Source: Bacteroidia bacterium (GTDB lineage Bacteria > Bacteroidota > Bacteroidia > Bacteroidales > VadinHA17). From it: DNA of 64,000 nucleotides. Below the pieces are notes generated by a model. The model was not told the DNA's origin. It did no database searches and saw only the letters and a program-made list of their open reading frames with translations. Each line of letters starts with the position of its first letter. The stretch's first letter is position 1. The stretch is taken from NCBI GenBank assembly GCA_026391555.1, contig JAPLEB010000093.1, positions 21,674 to 85,673 on the forward strand. The letters are read 5' to 3'. The position numbers were made by a program, and so were the translations under genes. Shown piece after piece: positions 11,594 through 29,502 of the stretch.

Positions 11594-14500
11594 TTATTTC
11601 AAAACAACATCTGCGAAATCCATAAACCAGTTCCAGTCTTTCAATAGCATATTATGAACTCCGTCTCGTATATGATAAGCTACTTTGCCACTCATTACCT
11701 GTTTATTAAGAGGCGGTATAGCTTCCGGAATATCAGAGGCTGTTCCTAATAACTTAAAAACAGGTATCGCATTATAAAGCGACAGATATGATCCACGCGG
11801 ATCACCCCAGAGGTCGTCGCTTGCACAATCAACATAAAGAGCCCTTGGTGCAATCAGGGCTAAAAGCATATGCATATCGACAGGAAGAGCATCTTCATTA
11901 TTATTGTACTTTTTATAGTTAGAACAGAACCAGTGTGGAAATGATGTGTTGATCCTTCCAACCGTTTCTCCAAAGCGGCGCCTGGCTAAAGCAGCTCCTC
12001 CGCAACCTGATTCATTTGATACCACCATTGCAAAACGGGAATCCTCAGCCCCTGCCCATAACGCGGTTTTACCACCGCGTGAATGACCAACCACAGCGAC
12101 CTTATCACCGGCAATATCTTTATCAGTTACAAGATAATCCATACAACGGCTTGCACCCCAGGCCCATGCAGCAATGGTTCCCCATGCATCATCAGGGCGC
12201 GAATCTTTGTCAAGAAGTGAGTGTATCCCATTCTTAAAATCATCAAAATTATCAGGATCTACATCTGCATTGCAAAAAACTGCCATCCCGTATCCTCTTG
12301 CAATGGCCTCTTCTACTGGCCAGAACTCATTTTTTACCTTCCTGTATGGATCTATATTCGCCGGCCCACGGTTATCGATCAAAAGAAATACAGGAACAGG
12401 TTTCTTTGCATTATTTGGTGTAAAAAGTGTGAGATGGATATCCAGAGTTTTACTAATTGATGCGATTGTGATATCGACCAGCTTAAGTGTCGCAGCTCCA
12501 TCCAATGCATTATTGTCCAGATTTACTACCTTAAAACTTTTCTGATAAGGAGTTTCAGGTATCCTTCCATAAACATTTTCCCGGAAAAGTTCCAGTATCT
12601 CATTCCTGCGAACATCCGTCCACATCCGGGGTGTTGTGACTTTTTTTCCATCGGCAGTTGTCAGCGCATCCGGTAATGAATATGCAGGCACTTTTTCTTC
12701 ATAATAGTTAAACTCCGGTCTGTTTTTAGAGAGCTTTTCGACAGTTTGTACTGATGCACGCCAACCGTTGTCCGATTTTATTTTTGTAAAAGTAACTGTC
12801 TGTTCACCTTTAAGCGAAGGATCGAGAAACTCCAGAACTACCCGCGTTACCCCTTTTTGCCAATAACGTTTTAAAGAAGCATCAAAAACTTCGATCTGCT
12901 CAATTTTTGGCTTCACCACTTTTTGATTATAGGCCATATTCAGACTGAACCCATCACCATCAAATCTTAGTAAGCCTGGAGAAACCACTGTTACCTTGCA
13001 ATAAGTGATCAGGTTAGATGATGTGGGAGCCTCTCCCCTGCCGGATAACTGAAACTTGTCGTTAATAACAAAATTCTTCCCCCGGTTAAGGGTATAACTG
13101 CGAACCCAGCTTTTTACCAAAGCATCTTTGGTATAAGCACCGGCAATATCTGTTGAAAACGTGGCAGACTTCTCATTTGCAGTGAATGATGAATTCTTTG
13201 CTTTGAAACCGGCACCCTCCTTCTGATCATTTCCATTGATTACAGGAAGGTTATGATATCCCGACTGCATTGTCCATATCTCATAACGTTTGGAACTGAA
13301 AGTTTTAGCAGTATAACCTTCACGGCCCAAATCAATAAGACAAGGCTTTCCATCGTAGTACATCACACAAGAACCTATGTCGTTGTGATTGTGACTTTCA
13401 GCATTAAACCCACCTTTGGCACCAAAGAAGAAACCTGCAAAACTTCCTTCCTTATCGCGGGCTCCGGCAACCTCGGTATCAGGAAGCCAGAAATCGGCCA
13501 TAAGCGCCTCTTTGGCATCAGCTTTTATGATTTCAGGCAACAGAACCAGGTTTTTGATCTGTTCACATATCTTGCCTGAGAAGGCATTTTCGCCCCATTT
13601 ATTCAGATTTGCCAGGTATGCGCCAAACTGTTGCATCTGAAGATCATTAATTGCTTTCCCATAAAGATAAACTGATGCCGGACTTCCCCCTATTGTTGCG
13701 TCAGCATCGGCAAAATTTATAAAATATGGAGCGTGAATATTGACTTTATAGAAATATTTCCCGATATTCTGAACCAGAGGATTATCGTACACATCAAATT
13801 TTCCATTAGTTGCACTTTTAAGGACAGCAAGACTCTCGTACAACAATGCCCCGGCGACTCCCCAATAGGATGGACCTTCATCGCAACCGCCATCATCTGA
13901 ATAACCATTCAGAAATTTGTCAAGAGAGTTGATAGTCTTCTGAACTTCAGCCTGCTTTTTAACAGGATCATCCCCGAGCAGGAGAAAACAGTTCAGCATG
14001 TTATAATTGACCCATGGATTCCAGTTATTCGGACGTCCGCCTATAAAACCCATATAACCAAAATCAGACCGTTCAAAATAGGGCTTAACAGCTTTATTAA
14101 TGATCTCCTGCTTCAGTCGTTGAGATATTAAAGGATGTACCTTATCAAACTCATCTTTAAACAGATACCATGTCCAGGAAAGATCACTTGCTATTTCACC
14201 TACACCAAGATCAACAGTTGGTTCATTCACATCTGGTAATCCACGGGGAGCTTTCTGGAAATGGAGATGAGCTGACCATCCCCACCATGTCTGTTCGCTG
14301 TAATACCACACTGCATTTATGATCTGATCGATAAAACGACCTTTGCCCTCAATAAGCTCTCCGGTAACAAGTGAATTGAGAGCTCTGCCGGGTGCGGCAT
14401 AAGCGCCCTGGCGGCGATCGCCTGATCGTATAAACTCAAGATAATCAGTCGCCCTGACAACCGGCCAGTTATAATCGAGATAACCCTCAGCTCTTGAAAT

Positions 14501-14743
14501 ATACTCTTTCCTGAGATTTGAAGGGACGCTCTCCCAGAACTGACGGTTTTTATAATCAGGCAACTTATTCCATGAGTTATCGGTAATAAGAGATTTTGCA
14601 AGGTCGATCTCCCTTGCTTTATTGGCCAGGATATTCCTCTCTTTTGTCTGGACAGATGCTGTTAAAGGGTAAATTGATGATAAGACAAGCATGGCGCAAC
14701 AGCCCGAAAGAAAGAGCTTCAGATTATGGTTAAATTTTATCAT
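11594..14743 (-). CDS. Heparinase II/III-like lyase fused to CE15 glucuronoyl esterase
   Basis: About 1049 residues from the preferred ATG at 14743 (the track's TTG at 14761 adds six residues). A signal peptide is followed by an alpha/alpha-barrel (about 40-400) and a heparinase II/III-type beta domain (about 420-670) with ESHNHNDIGS and the LIDLGREGY segment. Residues about 700-1049 form an alpha/beta hydrolase of bacterial CE15 type: Ser888 in GHSRGGK, Glu911 in SNESGCGG and His1030 in DGVHNM. The predicted enzyme removes uronic-acid esters and cleaves the uronate-containing chain by elimination, in the periplasm or at the surface. A separate lyase and esterase would be more usual, so the fusion is notable. 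Confidence 0.85.
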   Translation of the reverse strand: MIKFNHNLKLFLSGCCAMLVLSSIYPLTASVQTKERNILANKAREIDLAKSLITDNSWNKLPDYKNRQFWESVPSNLRKEYISRAEGYLDYNWPVVRATDYLEFIRSGDRRQGAYAAPGRALNSLVTGELIEGKGRFIDQIINAVWYYSEQTWWGWSAHLHFQKAPRGLPDVNEPTVDLGVGEIASDLSWTWYLFKDEFDKVHPLISQRLKQEIINKAVKPYFERSDFGYMGFIGGRPNNWNPWVNYNMLNCFLLLGDDPVKKQAEVQKTINSLDKFLNGYSDDGGCDEGPSYWGVAGALLYESLAVLKSATNGKFDVYDNPLVQNIGKYFYKVNIHAPYFINFADADATIGGSPASVYLYGKAINDLQMQQFGAYLANLNKWGENAFSGKICEQIKNLVLLPEIIKADAKEALMADFWLPDTEVAGARDKEGSFAGFFFGAKGGFNAESHNHNDIGSCVMYYDGKPCLIDLGREGYTAKTFSSKRYEIWTMQSGYHNLPVINGNDQKEGAGFKAKNSSFTANEKSATFSTDIAGAYTKDALVKSWVRSYTLNRGKNFVINDKFQLSGRGEAPTSSNLITYCKVTVVSPGLLRFDGDGFSLNMAYNQKVVKPKIEQIEVFDASLKRYWQKGVTRVVLEFLDPSLKGEQTVTFTKIKSDNGWRASVQTVEKLSKNRPEFNYYEEKVPAYSLPDALTTADGKKVTTPRMWTDVRRNEILELFRENVYGRIPETPYQKSFKVVNLDNNALDGAATLKLVDITIASISKTLDIHLTLFTPNNAKKPVPVFLLIDNRGPANIDPYRKVKNEFWPVEEAIARGYGMAVFCNADVDPDNFDDFKNGIHSLLDKDSRPDDAWGTIAAWAWGASRCMDYLVTDKDIAGDKVAVVGHSRGGKTALWAGAEDSRFAMVVSNESGCGGAALARRRFGETVGRINTSFPHWFCSNYKKYNNNEDALPVDMHMLLALIAPRALYVDCASDDLWGDPRGSYLSLYNAIPVFKLLGTASDIPEAIPPLNKQVMSGKVAYHIRDGVHNMLLKDWNWFMDFADVVLK

Positions 14744-14852
14744 CTCTGTTTTTATTATCAAAATATTAATAAAAAGCCATCATGCCGACCGTTATCAGTC
14801 ATAATGGCTCATAAATAATGTTTACCATTTGAGATATTTACCAAAAAATATT

Positions 14853-22206: not shown

Positions 22207-22234
22207 GTAGGGACGCATCACGATGCGTCCTTAC
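22207..22234. repeat. GTAG-type palindrome between convergent genes (putative bidirectional terminator)
   Basis: A 13-bp near-perfect inverted repeat (gtagggacgcatc / gatgcgtccttac) lies between the fucosidase stop and the stop of the small-subunit gene, touching the latter. The framework GTAGnGAC...GTCnnTAC recurs at 57722-57749. It probably ends both transcripts. Confidence 0.65.
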
Positions 22235-22989
22235 TATTTTATCCCTAACAGATCCATCACACCATTAATAAATGTCAGTGGATGAACCGGATTACCCGGG
22301 ACATAAAGATCAATATTATTCTCTTCAATAAATCTTCTGTCAAGAGCCGGACTTCCTTCAAAAATACCACCGCTGATAGCATCTGTCCCTGCAAGGATTA
22401 TAATTCTTGGTTCAGGAATTGATTCATAGCATATCTTTAATGCTTCTGACATATTTTCGCTCACCGGACCTGTAATAACTATTCCATCAGCATGGCGTGG
22501 TGAAGCAACAAACTCAATTCCGTAGCGGCCTGAGTCAAAATTCACATTGCCTGTAGCAGCAAGTTCCATTTCACAAGAATTATCTCCCCCGGCAGATACC
22601 TGGCGCAGCTTCAATGCACTTTTAAAAAGCCTTCTTATCTCTTTTCTTACCCTGTTTTCATCAAGTTGTACCGGAGTTTCAGAACCCGGTTTGATTATAA
22701 GTGCTTCCCTCACATTGGATGATATCCTGTAATCATTTGTGAACCTGATCTTTTCGGGGAGCAGGAACGAACATTCTTTACAGTAAACACATCTGCCCAT
22801 ATCTATAGATCTTGATTTACCATCAATGGCCATTACCGGGCAGACGGCAGAGACAGTTTTGATTTCATCTTTTGTTATATCACCTGAAATGACCGGCCTC
22901 CCTCTGAACAACGCTGAAACAGGCTGGGTACGAAGGTTTTTGACATATTGTCTGCCGTGACTCTTCAGAACTTTTATCTCTTTAAACAT
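22234..22989 (-). CDS. Ferredoxin-NuoB/HycG fusion: small subunit of hydrogenase-related complex, cluster ligands degenerate
   Basis: 251 residues. The N-terminal part is a reduced ferredoxin domain: Cys50 (CP) plus Cys67, Cys70 and Cys73 can bind one [4Fe-4S] cluster, as in HyfH/HycF. The C-terminal part aligns with HycG/MbhJ/NuoB proteins (GGDNSCEME, ITGPVSENM, AGTDAISGGIF, YVPGNP). Three of the four cysteines that normally hold the proximal cluster are replaced: Asp136, Asp203 and Asn233; only Cys139 remains. The gene is last in the six-gene operon, 23 bases after the large subunit. It is read as a peripheral subunit of an Ehr-type complex. Confidence 0.8.
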   Translation of the reverse strand: MFKEIKVLKSHGRQYVKNLRTQPVSALFRGRPVISGDITKDEIKTVSAVCPVMAIDGKSRSIDMGRCVYCKECSFLLPEKIRFTNDYRISSNVREALIIKPGSETPVQLDENRVRKEIRRLFKSALKLRQVSAGGDNSCEMELAATGNVNFDSGRYGIEFVASPRHADGIVITGPVSENMSEALKICYESIPEPRIIILAGTDAISGGIFEGSPALDRRFIEENNIDLYVPGNPVHPLTFINGVMDLLGIK

Positions 22990-23012: not shown

Positions 23013-24533
23013 TTATAAATCGTTTCCGCAATACGACAGGTTAAAGCTCTTATTACACACCGGGAAATCCGATATTTCCTGATTGCGCACTGCCAAAGCT
23101 AAAGCCAACCAATTATGCATTGAAGGATCTTTGACTTTGTAATGTGCAATATTTCCATTATTATCAGTGATAGCGATGTGACAAATTTCACCTCTCCATC
23201 CTTCGACCATCGAGATTGCAAAGCTGTTTGGCTTTAACTTATATTCATAAACAGGCTTCTTGATGTCTTTAATTTTTTGTCGCCATATCTCAATAAGTTC
23301 ATGAATAATTTTCACCGATTCACGTGCTTCAAGATTACGCTCCATACCGCGTGCAAGAACATCGCCTGTCTCAAGAATTACCGGTCGAACCGGATAGTTT
23401 TTATAGTATTGAAAAGGATGTGTTTTTCGAATATCACGTAAAATCCCGCAGGTACGGGCAGCCATTCCAACGGCACCCAGGCTTAAAGCTTGTTGTCTGG
23501 TAAGTATCCCTATATCATCAAAACGGCCAAGAACACTTGGTAGGGAATAAATAAGATCAGTTACTTCAGAATATCGTCTATCTGTATCATCAAGTACTCT
23601 GAGCATTTCGTCCATAATATTATTACTCATGGGATAATTACTGCCTCCGGGGCGAACTAATCCCTTCCCAAAGCGATTTCCGCACCAAAATTGAGTAGTA
23701 TTTATTATTGTAGTTCTGAGCGCTTCACACACAACTTGTCCAAGCTGGTAAGCAACATCGCCGCATAAAGCAGCAGTGTCGCCAATGTGATTGGCAAGCC
23801 TTTCCATTTCCAAAGCGATGCACCTTTCGATCTGTAGCGCTTCGCTGACCTGAATACCAGCTAATGACTCAATAAGCTGCGAGTGAGCCAGTGCATGTCC
23901 AACTGAAGTATCTCCGGCAATGCTTTCTGAAAGAACACATCTTTGTAATGCATCGTTTTTTTCTATAAATAATTTTTCAATACCACGGTGCTGATACCCA
24001 AGTTGAATTTCGAGGTGTAAAACCTTTTCCCCGTTGCAGATAAACCTAAAGTGACCTGGTTCAATTATACCCGCATGTATCGGACCTACTCCCACCTCGT
24101 GCAACTCTTCGCTCTCAATCTCATAGAAAGGATAATTATCCATAATCTGTGACTTATCTGAACGTTCATGCGAATATCTAACCGGCTTTAACCATGGGTG
24201 CCCTTCGAATTTCACTCCAAAATTTTCATGAATCTCACGCTCAAAAATATGAAGCTGGGAGCAAACCGGAGTTAATGATTTCAATACAGGTTTATCCTTA
24301 TTAATCACGTGAGCAAACACTTTAATACTATTATTATTGTCATCAGCAATACAACAATAAAGTTTCAGTTTACCCGCTGATTCTACACCGTAATAGGCAA
24401 CGCAGTGTTTTACTTCATCTTTTAAAAAAGCCATAATCTGATCAAAAAAAATATCATATTTTAATATCGGTATTTCGTTAAGGTCAGTCGGTAATGAATT
24501 GTTTATTATTTCTATATATAGTTTTTGATCCAT
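23013..24533 (-). CDS. NuoCD/HyfG-like large subunit without [NiFe]-binding cysteines
   Basis: 506 residues. The N-terminal ~160 residues resemble the NuoC/30-kDa domain (HIFEREIHENFGVKFEGHPWLKP). The rest resembles NuoD and group 4 hydrogenase large subunits (EPGHFRFICNGEKVLHLEIQLGYQHRGIEKLF). At the L1 site, where hydrogenases have RxCGxC, it reads LSESIAGDTSVGH. At the L2 site, where they have DPCxxC, it reads DPSMHNW. It therefore cannot bind a [NiFe] centre in the known way. No hydrogenase maturation genes are present. The subunit is probably a docking or quinone/ion-coupling element, as in complex I or Ehr complexes. Confidence 0.85.
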   Translation of the reverse strand: MDQKLYIEIINNSLPTDLNEIPILKYDIFFDQIMAFLKDEVKHCVAYYGVESAGKLKLYCCIADDNNNSIKVFAHVINKDKPVLKSLTPVCSQLHIFEREIHENFGVKFEGHPWLKPVRYSHERSDKSQIMDNYPFYEIESEELHEVGVGPIHAGIIEPGHFRFICNGEKVLHLEIQLGYQHRGIEKLFIEKNDALQRCVLSESIAGDTSVGHALAHSQLIESLAGIQVSEALQIERCIALEMERLANHIGDTAALCGDVAYQLGQVVCEALRTTIINTTQFWCGNRFGKGLVRPGGSNYPMSNNIMDEMLRVLDDTDRRYSEVTDLIYSLPSVLGRFDDIGILTRQQALSLGAVGMAARTCGILRDIRKTHPFQYYKNYPVRPVILETGDVLARGMERNLEARESVKIIHELIEIWRQKIKDIKKPVYEYKLKPNSFAISMVEGWRGEICHIAITDNNGNIAHYKVKDPSMHNWLALALAVRNQEISDFPVCNKSFNLSYCGNDL

Positions 24534-27510: not shown

Positions 27511-29502
27511 TCAGATAAGGTTAAAATAGGTTAACAAAAAGACAAGCAGCATAAATACAAACGCATATAGAATGTAATGCTGTATTTGTCCGGTCTGCAT
27601 TACTGCAATTTTTTTAAGAAGAGATGAAAACCAATCTATCGGTTTGTCAATAAGAAGCTTTTTGAAAATATCATCACTATGCGACACAAAGGTTCTTTTG
27701 CCGGGAAATATTTCATCTTCCCGGATGTCAACCATTATTTTTTTTGTCTGGAGCAATGGTTTTACAAGATGATTGTAATTATAGGCATATGATGTTGCAG
27801 TATATTGTTGTTTAAAGGTGCCTGCAGTATAGCCGCAACCCCATGTTGGGCCGACATCAATTTGTTTGGTCTTGAGATGGAAATGCCTGTAAACGAGCAA
27901 TATAATAATCGTAATAACAAAAATTCCACTCAGAATGCTTATTTGCGTGAGGTTATTGACAGAAGCTGCTGCTGCTATATTTGTATCGGGTATATTGAAA
28001 GCCGATGATACTATATTAAAAACAGGTTTCACAAAGAAGACTGAGGCTAATCCTATCAGCATTATAAAAGCTATGGTTATGAATTGAGGGAAAATCATCA
28101 CCCGGCTTACTTCTTTAGCCATTGATGCTTTTTCTGAACGTGGTTCTCCAAGGAAGACTATTCCAAACGCTTTAGTAAAACAGAAAATTGCCAGTCCCCC
28201 GATTAGGGCAAGTCCGACAATGCTTGACAGTATTACAATAGATTGATATAAGTTGGCTGCTGACAGGCTTTTAAACATGCCAACGTAAATAAGATATTCT
28301 GAAATAAAACCGTTGAAGGGAGGCAGACCGCAGATAGCTAAAGAACCTATTAAAAAGAGAATTGCTGTATATGGCATTTTCTTCATTAAACCGCCAAGAT
28401 GTTCAATGTTTCGTGTATGTGTGGCCGTGTACACCGAGCCTGCATTAAAAAAGAGAAGAGATTTGAATAAAGAATGATTCAACACATGTAGTAAGCCCCC
28501 GCTGAAACCGAGCAGGCTTAATGCGATATTTTTTGTAGCAAGGCCTATCACCCCCAATCCAATTCCGATACCTATAATACCAATATTCTCAATGCTATGG
28601 TATGCCAGCAATCGCTTAAGATCATGCTGAACGATAGCCATCATTACGCCAAGCACACCTGATATTAGAGAAACTGACAGAATGATGAGGCCAATCAAAA
28701 GCAGATCATTCTGAACCGACATAAGAACCCTTAAAATACCATAAATGCCCATTTTTATCATTACCCCCGACATTACACCCGATACATGCGATGGAGCTGC
28801 AGGGTGAGCTTCGGGGAGCCATGTATGCAAGGGAATAAAACCGGCCTTTATTCCAAACCCGATAAAAAACAGGATAAAAAGCAGAAAATTAGAATGGCTT
28901 GAGAAATATAGCCTGAGAGCATCAAAGCTCATTTGCCCGGTTGCTTTATCAACAATTAAAAAGCTGATTAAGATAAAAAACATGCCTACATGCATCTGTA
29001 TCAGGTAACTGATACCTGTTTTCATTATAGTGCGGTCTTCTGCATCAAAAATCACCAGGAGGAACGAAGACAGAGCCATTAATTCCCAGACAATTAGAAA
29101 CGACAAGCCATCGCGGATCATAACTACCATTATCATCGAAAGGTAGAGCCACAGGTACGAGAAGTAATGTATTGAAAAATGTAACGCGTTTTTGCTTTGA
29201 TAATACGACTGGAGGTATCCCCTGGCATAAAGGAACCCTATAAAAACAGTTATATTAACCACGATGATAAAGAATGCAGAAAGCTTGTCAATTATAAAGA
29301 CAAGACCGTTTTGCAGGAAAGGTAATTTTAGCTGTATTTCAAGTATTTGTTTATCATTTGAAACCAATTCAAAGCACCACATTGAGCTTAATATGATCCC
29401 ACTTGTAAGCAAAAACAGTGTATAGAAATACTTTAGAGATTTGGGAATAAAAAAAACAGCGAATGACAGAAGTAAGATAATAAAAAATAATAATGTATTC
29501 AT
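27511..29502 (-). CDS. HyfB/NuoL-like antiporter subunit
   Basis: 663 residues, first gene of the operon, with about 15 transmembrane helices. Channel residues are conserved: glutamate in VWELMALSSFLL, lysine in GIKAGFIPLHTWLPEAHP, lysine in DLKRLLAYHSIENIG and lysine in NHSLFKSLLFF. Near residue 560 the hydrophilic GPTWGCGY ... QYTATSYA stretch is the HyfB/HycC signature, followed by a lateral-helix-like tail and a last membrane helix. A TACCTTCG box (29547-29554, minus strand) about 45 bases upstream could be the operon promoter. Confidence 0.88.
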   Translation of the reverse strand: MNTLLFFIILLLSFAVFFIPKSLKYFYTLFLLTSGIILSSMWCFELVSNDKQILEIQLKLPFLQNGLVFIIDKLSAFFIIVVNITVFIGFLYARGYLQSYYQSKNALHFSIHYFSYLWLYLSMIMVVMIRDGLSFLIVWELMALSSFLLVIFDAEDRTIMKTGISYLIQMHVGMFFILISFLIVDKATGQMSFDALRLYFSSHSNFLLFILFFIGFGIKAGFIPLHTWLPEAHPAAPSHVSGVMSGVMIKMGIYGILRVLMSVQNDLLLIGLIILSVSLISGVLGVMMAIVQHDLKRLLAYHSIENIGIIGIGIGLGVIGLATKNIALSLLGFSGGLLHVLNHSLFKSLLFFNAGSVYTATHTRNIEHLGGLMKKMPYTAILFLIGSLAICGLPPFNGFISEYLIYVGMFKSLSAANLYQSIVILSSIVGLALIGGLAIFCFTKAFGIVFLGEPRSEKASMAKEVSRVMIFPQFITIAFIMLIGLASVFFVKPVFNIVSSAFNIPDTNIAAAASVNNLTQISILSGIFVITIIILLVYRHFHLKTKQIDVGPTWGCGYTAGTFKQQYTATSYAYNYNHLVKPLLQTKKIMVDIREDEIFPGKRTFVSHSDDIFKKLLIDKPIDWFSSLLKKIAVMQTGQIQHYILYAFVFMLLVFLLTYFNLI

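Follow-up and report, generated by a model that had tools for sequence, protein, structure and literature searches.

Gene Content and Operon Organization

The operon described here lies within a 64,000-nucleotide stretch of DNA from a Bacteroidales bacterium (hereafter, the window) and comprises six co-directional genes, running from position 29502 to 22234 in a Hyf-like arrangement. The HyfB-like gene comes first, followed by the HyfC/NuoH-like, HyfE-like, HyfF-like, and NuoCD/HycE-like genes, with the fused small subunit (P0001) in last position (Table 1). As proposed in a first-pass annotation of the sequence, P0001 joins a NuoB-like subunit to a one-cluster ferredoxin, the NuoB homology being clear from a PF01058 match (1.8e-18) as well as from sequence and fold matches. 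Its N-terminal part is HycF-like and the NuoB/HycG-like part begins at around residue 115. The AF2 model of P0001 has a mean pLDDT of 92.4, and its best PDB relatives, by both sequence and fold, are HycG (7z0s_G) and MbhJ (6cfw_J), with MbhJ placed slightly higher by profile. The plus strand opposite this gene is non-coding. With HyfB/C/E/F/G/I-type subunits encoded together and a large subunit (P0002) that lacks NiFe cysteines, the complex is, by sequence definition, an Ehr (the name reportedly given by Marreiros et al. in 2013 to energy-converting hydrogenase-related complexes) and by definition neither a group 4 [NiFe] hydrogenase nor complex I.

Table 1. Coordinates of the operon genes and of the cluster-ligand codons of the small subunit in the window.
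Feature	Position	Strand	Remarks
HyfB-type antiporter-like membrane subunit, 663 aa	27511..29502	-	E140, K219, H343, K347, E402 conserved
HyfC/HycD/NuoH-type membrane anchor, 303 aa	26597..27508	-	E-channel-like acids conserved
HyfE-type membrane subunit, 204 aa	25973..26587	-	PRK11492 match, E 1.4e-11
HyfF-type antiporter-like membrane subunit, 475 aa	24542..25969	-	E123, K209, K327, E382 conserved
Large subunit P0002, NuoCD/HycE-like, 506 aa, without the four NiFe cysteines	23013..24533	-	Keeps HRGxE Arg183, Lys290, His249
Small subunit P0001, one-cluster ferredoxin domain fused to NuoB/HycG-like domain, 251 aa	22234..22989	-	ATG start
Cys50 codon, N6b-type ligand ('CP' cysteine, first ferredoxin motif)	22840..22842	-	C in 93/94
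Cys67, Cys70, Cys73 (CxxCxxC), N6b-type ligands; subsequent N6a cysteine absent	22771..22791	-	
Asp136 codon, first N2 cysteine replaced	22582..22584	-	D in 94/94; D/E in 140/142 N2-less proteins
Cys139 codon, sole leftover N2 cysteine, unconstrained	22573..22575	-	C in 121/142, else T/A/S/G/N/D/V
Asp203 codon, third N2 cysteine replaced	22381..22383	-	D/E in 142/142
Asn233 (fourth N2 cysteine replaced) to His236	22282..22293	-	N233 140/142, H236 139/142

A six-gene operon of identical make-up is found in Bacteroidota, Planctomycetota, and Variovorax; cultured organisms with the complex include Rikenella microfusus and Flavihumibacter profundi. In the window, the operon is flanked downstream by a plus-strand alpha-L-fucosidase-like gene and upstream by a Gfo/Idh-type gene, both identified by eye and neither of them part of the operon. 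No conserved electron-donor, acceptor, partner, or regulator gene was found beside the operon, and the neighbors shared between loci resemble ordinary local gene order. The HyfB-like gene at the operon head is tandemly duplicated in a number of loci (L079, L084, L086, L088, L090, L093, L094, and L097–L099) from Prolixibacteraceae, Paludibacter, and Flavihumibacter, and a tandem HyfB-like duplication is also present in L203, L204, and the Planctomycetota loci L208, L210, and L214. Elsewhere in the window, we noted a minus-strand ORF of 1055 aa (11594–14761) in which, on visual inspection, a heparinase-like lyase is fused to a C-terminal half resembling an esterase.

Iron–Sulfur Cluster Ligands of the Small Subunit

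The ferredoxin domain of P0001 contains exactly four cysteines (Cys50, Cys67, Cys70, and Cys73), as the first-pass annotation had counted, corresponding to one [4Fe-4S] site rather than the eight cysteines and two [4Fe-4S] clusters of a HycF/NuoI-type ferredoxin. That annotation also placed the sole remaining cluster at the periphery of the complex, which proved to be wrong, since the retained set consists of the second CxxCxxC motif and the 'CP' cysteine. In NuoI/HycF-type ferredoxins, we take this combination to be that of N6b, the inner cluster adjoining N2, based on the Nqo9 ligand pattern; it is the outer cluster, N6a, that was lost. The four N6b cysteines are kept in essentially all members of a first alignment set (94 homologues, drawn from two collections). 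A larger set, extended by sampling of 392 Planctomycetota and of 295 genomes from the order to which the window belongs, comprises 204 non-redundant fused proteins, and all four are present in 203 of them. The exception, L288 (from a MAG), keeps N2 with four cysteines and has lost both N6a and one N6b cysteine (C to G), and absolute conservation of N6b was rejected on this account. N2, the proximal cluster, is absent in 142 of the 204 proteins; N6a is also absent in 141 of these, the other one (L092) having all eight ferredoxin cysteines. The rest of the set is made up of 50 proteins in which the twelve ligands are complete, 11 that have N2 but lack N6a, and one with three N2 cysteines (L174). 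In P0001, the predicted N6b cluster remains while its partners, N6a and N2, are both missing.

At the N2 site, the alignments confirmed the first-pass reading that three of the four proximal-cluster cysteines are replaced, by Asp136, Asp203, and Asn233 (hereafter, the D/x/D/N state). P0001 has neither the four-cysteine proximal [4Fe-4S] site of the group 4 [NiFe] hydrogenases, given these three residues, nor the N2 site of complex I, with its tandem cysteines and four Cys ligands. Among the 94 homologues, D136 and N233 are invariant (94/94 each), H236 is present in 93, and D203 in 90 (Glu in the remainder), while C139 gives way to T, A, S, G, or N in seven. The 142 N2-less proteins of the larger set display D in 138, E in two, T in one, and N in one at position 136; D in 136 and E in six at position 203; and N in 140, S in one, and A in one at position 233. 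Position 139, in turn, is C in 121 and another residue in 21, and no N2 cysteine is left in L148 and L149. Conservation of the replacements exceeds chance by far and, given that positions 136, 203, and 233 are constrained and 139 is not, the pattern is that expected of a fixed, non-cluster site. The first-pass annotation had reasoned that the replacements would be functional if they were conserved; they are conserved in both alignment sets and are presumably functional. A general loss of cluster assembly can be set aside, as normal cluster cysteines are found in two other small subunits encoded by the host genome, an Ech-like protein and the NuoB of a complex I.

The frequent retention of C139 might suggest that N2 is still assembled with Asp, Asn, and Cys ligands, and there are other proteins in which a [4Fe-4S] cluster has a single Asp ligand. 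However, the last cysteine is missing in the 21 substituted proteins, L148 and L149 have none, and ligation of a cluster by two Asp and one Asn is not known to us. We regard such a ligation as highly improbable; a cluster without cysteine ligation was rejected because C139 is not kept. A second alternative is that the site has been rebuilt for a non-redox cation (Mg2+, Ca2+, or Zn2+), bound via D136, D203, N233, and perhaps H236, in a structural or Lewis acid role. The tolerance for Asp/Glu exchange at positions 136 and 203 and the near-invariance of H236 would agree with a metal site, but H236 also occurs beside an intact cluster (PGCPPHP) and is therefore not a newly arisen ligand, and other N2-less lineages have different residues at the site (T/D/E/S, N/D/D/A, and D/C/D/D, described below), which a specific metal site would hardly permit. 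We consider a metal site distinctly unlikely.

Evolutionary History of Cluster Loss

Fused homologues in the same type of operon retain all twelve cysteines in the Bacteroidota locus L115 (55% identity) and on a Variovorax PBL-E5 plasmid (49%). Trees were computed with all ligand columns masked. In the careful tree, a branch with support of 49/75 sets the D/x/D/N proteins apart, in a position nested among intact relatives, and a single change to D/x/D/N is seen on 52% of bootstrap trees; in a quick tree, L115 was placed inside the D/x/D/N group. One old N2 loss, the simplest reading of this group, is compatible with these results, with weak support for the branch. N6a was lost more than once with N2 intact (in L116 and L117; in L123; and in L170 and other Planctomycetota). 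Two D/x/D/N small subunits, L073 (Marinimicrobia) and L102 (Phycisphaerae), lie on contigs labeled as other phyla, reflecting either lateral transfer or misbinning. A scan of viral contigs returned one fragment, which was left out of the analysis.

The dN/dS of the small subunit between close orthologues is 0.07–0.15; the D/x/D/N state is held under strong purifying selection, and recent decay is excluded. Intact homologues in close relatives were named in the first-pass annotation as the sign of such decay. The outcome is mixed: homologues of this kind do exist, as noted above, but the D/x/D/N proteins are consistent with one old clade (bootstrap of 49) on which strong purifying selection acts. 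Recent decay or an assembly artefact therefore has a negligible probability: while homologues with all four N2 cysteines do occur in the same phylum (L115, L118–L122), identical substitutions are shared across many genera and families, in open frames and a conserved operon, dN/dS is low, and the tree is consistent with one old loss.

Outside the D/x/D/N group, there were at least three further, separate losses of N2. These cases include a Mycobacterium branderi plasmid (N/D/D/A at the N2 site), grouped with intact Burkholderia (99/96); an Allomeiothermus silvanus plasmid (T/D/E/S), on a long branch of unsure placement; and an unfused Bacteroidales small subunit (L296; D/C/D/D). In each of these separate cases, the residues at the old N2 positions include two or more carboxylates, and position 203 is acidic. 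The operon of the unfused D/C/D/D protein (L317; G069:C386) has the gene order small-B-C-E-F-CD, and no ferredoxin gene is present on its 8.4 kb contig. Given this small subunit and the lack of a ferredoxin gene on the contig, L317 apparently encodes no complete Fe-S cluster, which indicates that complexes of this kind can do without one.

Incomplete relays seem to be common in Ehr. Four plasmid-borne, unfused Ehr operons (L144, L145, L146, and L199) have a four-cysteine N2 site and no ferredoxin gene in the cluster, in which case N2 would be the sole iron–sulfur cluster. Plasmid 3 of Variovorax sp. PBL-E5 (L143, 6746-24626) carries two adjacent Ehr operons, one with a fused, 12-cysteine small subunit and the other with an unfused, N2-only small subunit.

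Large Subunit and Membrane Arm

The NiFe-binding CxxC pairs of group 4 [NiFe] hydrogenases are missing from P0002, where the four positions read A206, T209, S500, and G503; across 46 large subunits from the N2-less clade, none has cysteine at any of them. Given that NiFe cysteines are absent in both N2-intact and N2-less clade members, the NiFe loss came first. They are still there in the more distant fused relative L215; there (L215/L176, G483), a fused ferredoxin-NuoB small subunit is encoded beside a large subunit with four NiFe cysteines, likely representing a true group 4 hydrogenase with a like fusion.

The quinone-site residues of complex I are also lacking, with His38 and Tyr87 of Thermus Nqo4 aligning to Ile157 and Gly207, and the redox-Bohr His169 position is mostly Gly (Gly289). 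In complex I, the Arg of the HRGxE motif lies 3.7 Å from N2 and is required for N2 in Yarrowia (PMC8042128). This Arg is present in all 46 large subunits without N2, as well as in M. branderi and A. silvanus. Large-subunit residues changing with N2 loss yielded weak candidates only (C257, and K290, which is mostly R in intact ones), and most clade-specific changes are common to the intact relative L200 and thus predate the loss of N2. A model of P0002 (pLDDT 84.6) was poor at residues 133–160 and the C-terminus and was left unused.

The membrane arm is of the complex I type. In both antiporter-like subunits, the TM5 Glu, TM7 Lys, and TM12 Glu (helices assigned by alignment) show little or no variation, whether N2 is present or absent; the TM12 Glu of the HyfF-type subunit is Lys in 4 of 18 N2-intact operons. 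Most E-channel acids of the anchor subunit are kept alike in N2-less, N2-intact, and convergent operons. Over these residues of the antiporter-like and anchor subunits, invariance amounts to 42/42, 55/55, and 56/56.

Comparison with Known Complexes

No function is assigned to Ehr complexes in PMC6349859 or PMC10284858; electron transfer coupled to charge translocation is presumed for them. The window complex shares with them Hyf/complex I-like subunits, antiporter-like membrane subunits, and a large subunit without NiFe ligands; however, in those accounts NiFe loss is the defining feature and loss of the proximal cluster goes unmentioned, whereas the small subunit here includes a fused ferredoxin and has lost both N2 and N6a, with Asp/Asp/Asn fixed. 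The best PDB relative of the small, large, HyfB-like, and HyfC-like subunits is the E. coli formate hydrogenlyase (HycCDEFG, 7z0s), which possesses NiFe and a full relay, and whose HycC lacks the TM7 Lys (Leu208; PMC9474812). In contrast, the window complex has no NiFe, one cluster, and two antiporter-like subunits with the TM7 Lys kept, such that its membrane arm looks more pump-like than that of formate hydrogenlyase.

The closest precedent for an altered proximal cluster is MBS of P. furiosus, a member of the same superfamily in which proximal-cluster ligation is likewise altered and NiFe cysteines were lost stepwise (PMC7684303), although MBS keeps the cluster on three Cys as its catalytic site and here it is gone. 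Respiratory complex I (NuoB/NuoCD/NuoI) shares the folds, the HRGxE motif, and the pump residues, but differs in having an NADH module, N2, N6a, and the quinone residues His38/Tyr87. Mrp antiporters, like other redox-free users of antiporter-like subunits, translocate ions by means of the common subunit fold; they perform no redox chemistry and have no NuoB/NuoCD peripheral arm, an arm which is strongly conserved here. In the literature searched, with most subscription papers outside its reach, there was no report of an N2-less member.

Proposed Function of the Complex

The predicted iron–sulfur relay is dismantled in this clade, with N6a and N2 gone, N6b alone left, and NiFe lost earlier. The interruption of the electron path suggested in the first-pass annotation was upheld, in that the proximal cluster is missing and the relay no longer reaches the cavity of the old active site. 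Lacking NiFe, the complex I quinone residues, and N2, the complex has its known electron route to the coupling cavity closed.

One way to retain redox chemistry would be a shortened path, in which reduced ferredoxin or another donor reduces N6b, electrons pass to a small acceptor in the vacated N2 or N6a space, and acceptor binding or protonation drives the pump. N6b persists in 203/204 fused proteins regardless of other losses, which favors this reading; in a purely redox-free machine, the cluster would be superfluous unless structural. That the superfamily can shift its terminal redox site is also demonstrated by MBS, where the proximal cluster became the site of polysulfide catalysis (PMC7684303). 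Nevertheless, there is no conserved donor or acceptor gene near the operon, and the related L317 does without a complete cluster. Furthermore, by known complex I distances, N6b is too far from the coupling cavity for fast tunneling. Overall, we find a shortened path rather unlikely.

The high conservation of the peripheral arm, together with the invariance of the pump residues, favors an ion translocator with a coupling region set by conformation or by a ligand. We lean towards a translocator uncoupled from N2 electron transfer, in which paired carboxylates replace the charge of N2 and N6b serves as a structural element or switch; the complex probably moves ions by means other than the usual electron flow. 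D136, D203, and N233 would fill the N2 site, facing the second-sphere Arg183 of the large subunit, with D136 and D203 standing in for the 2− charge of oxidized [4Fe-4S](Cys)4 N2 against this Arg, and the carboxylates may thereby keep the coupling region folded. Translocation of H+ or Na+/H+ would then depend, for its drive or its gating, on a conformational change or on a ligand bound in the old NiFe/quinone cavity, and would proceed without electron transfer through N2. N6b may act as a structural element or a redox switch, and redox sensing by this cluster, also raised in the first-pass annotation, is possible. For Ehr as a whole, we tentatively suggest, as a plausible but less than even prospect, that redox centers have been removed repeatedly (leaving three clusters, N6b and N2, N6b only, or none) under full constraint on the arm and coupling region, and that paired carboxylates have independently assumed the electrostatic function of N2, giving a complex I-type machine without a continuous electron chain.

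If true, the complex would be a naturally occurring homologue of complex I, uncoupled from redox chemistry and powered by ions or a ligand. For complex I, it has long been asked how electron transfer at N2 drives the movement of ions at a distance, in the membrane arm, and a homologue with fixed carboxylates in place of N2 and all its pump residues kept would offer a direct test of the membrane arm without the redox step, as well as of whether the coupling region takes its state from the charge at N2 alone. It would also provide a testable clue to the function of Ehr complexes.
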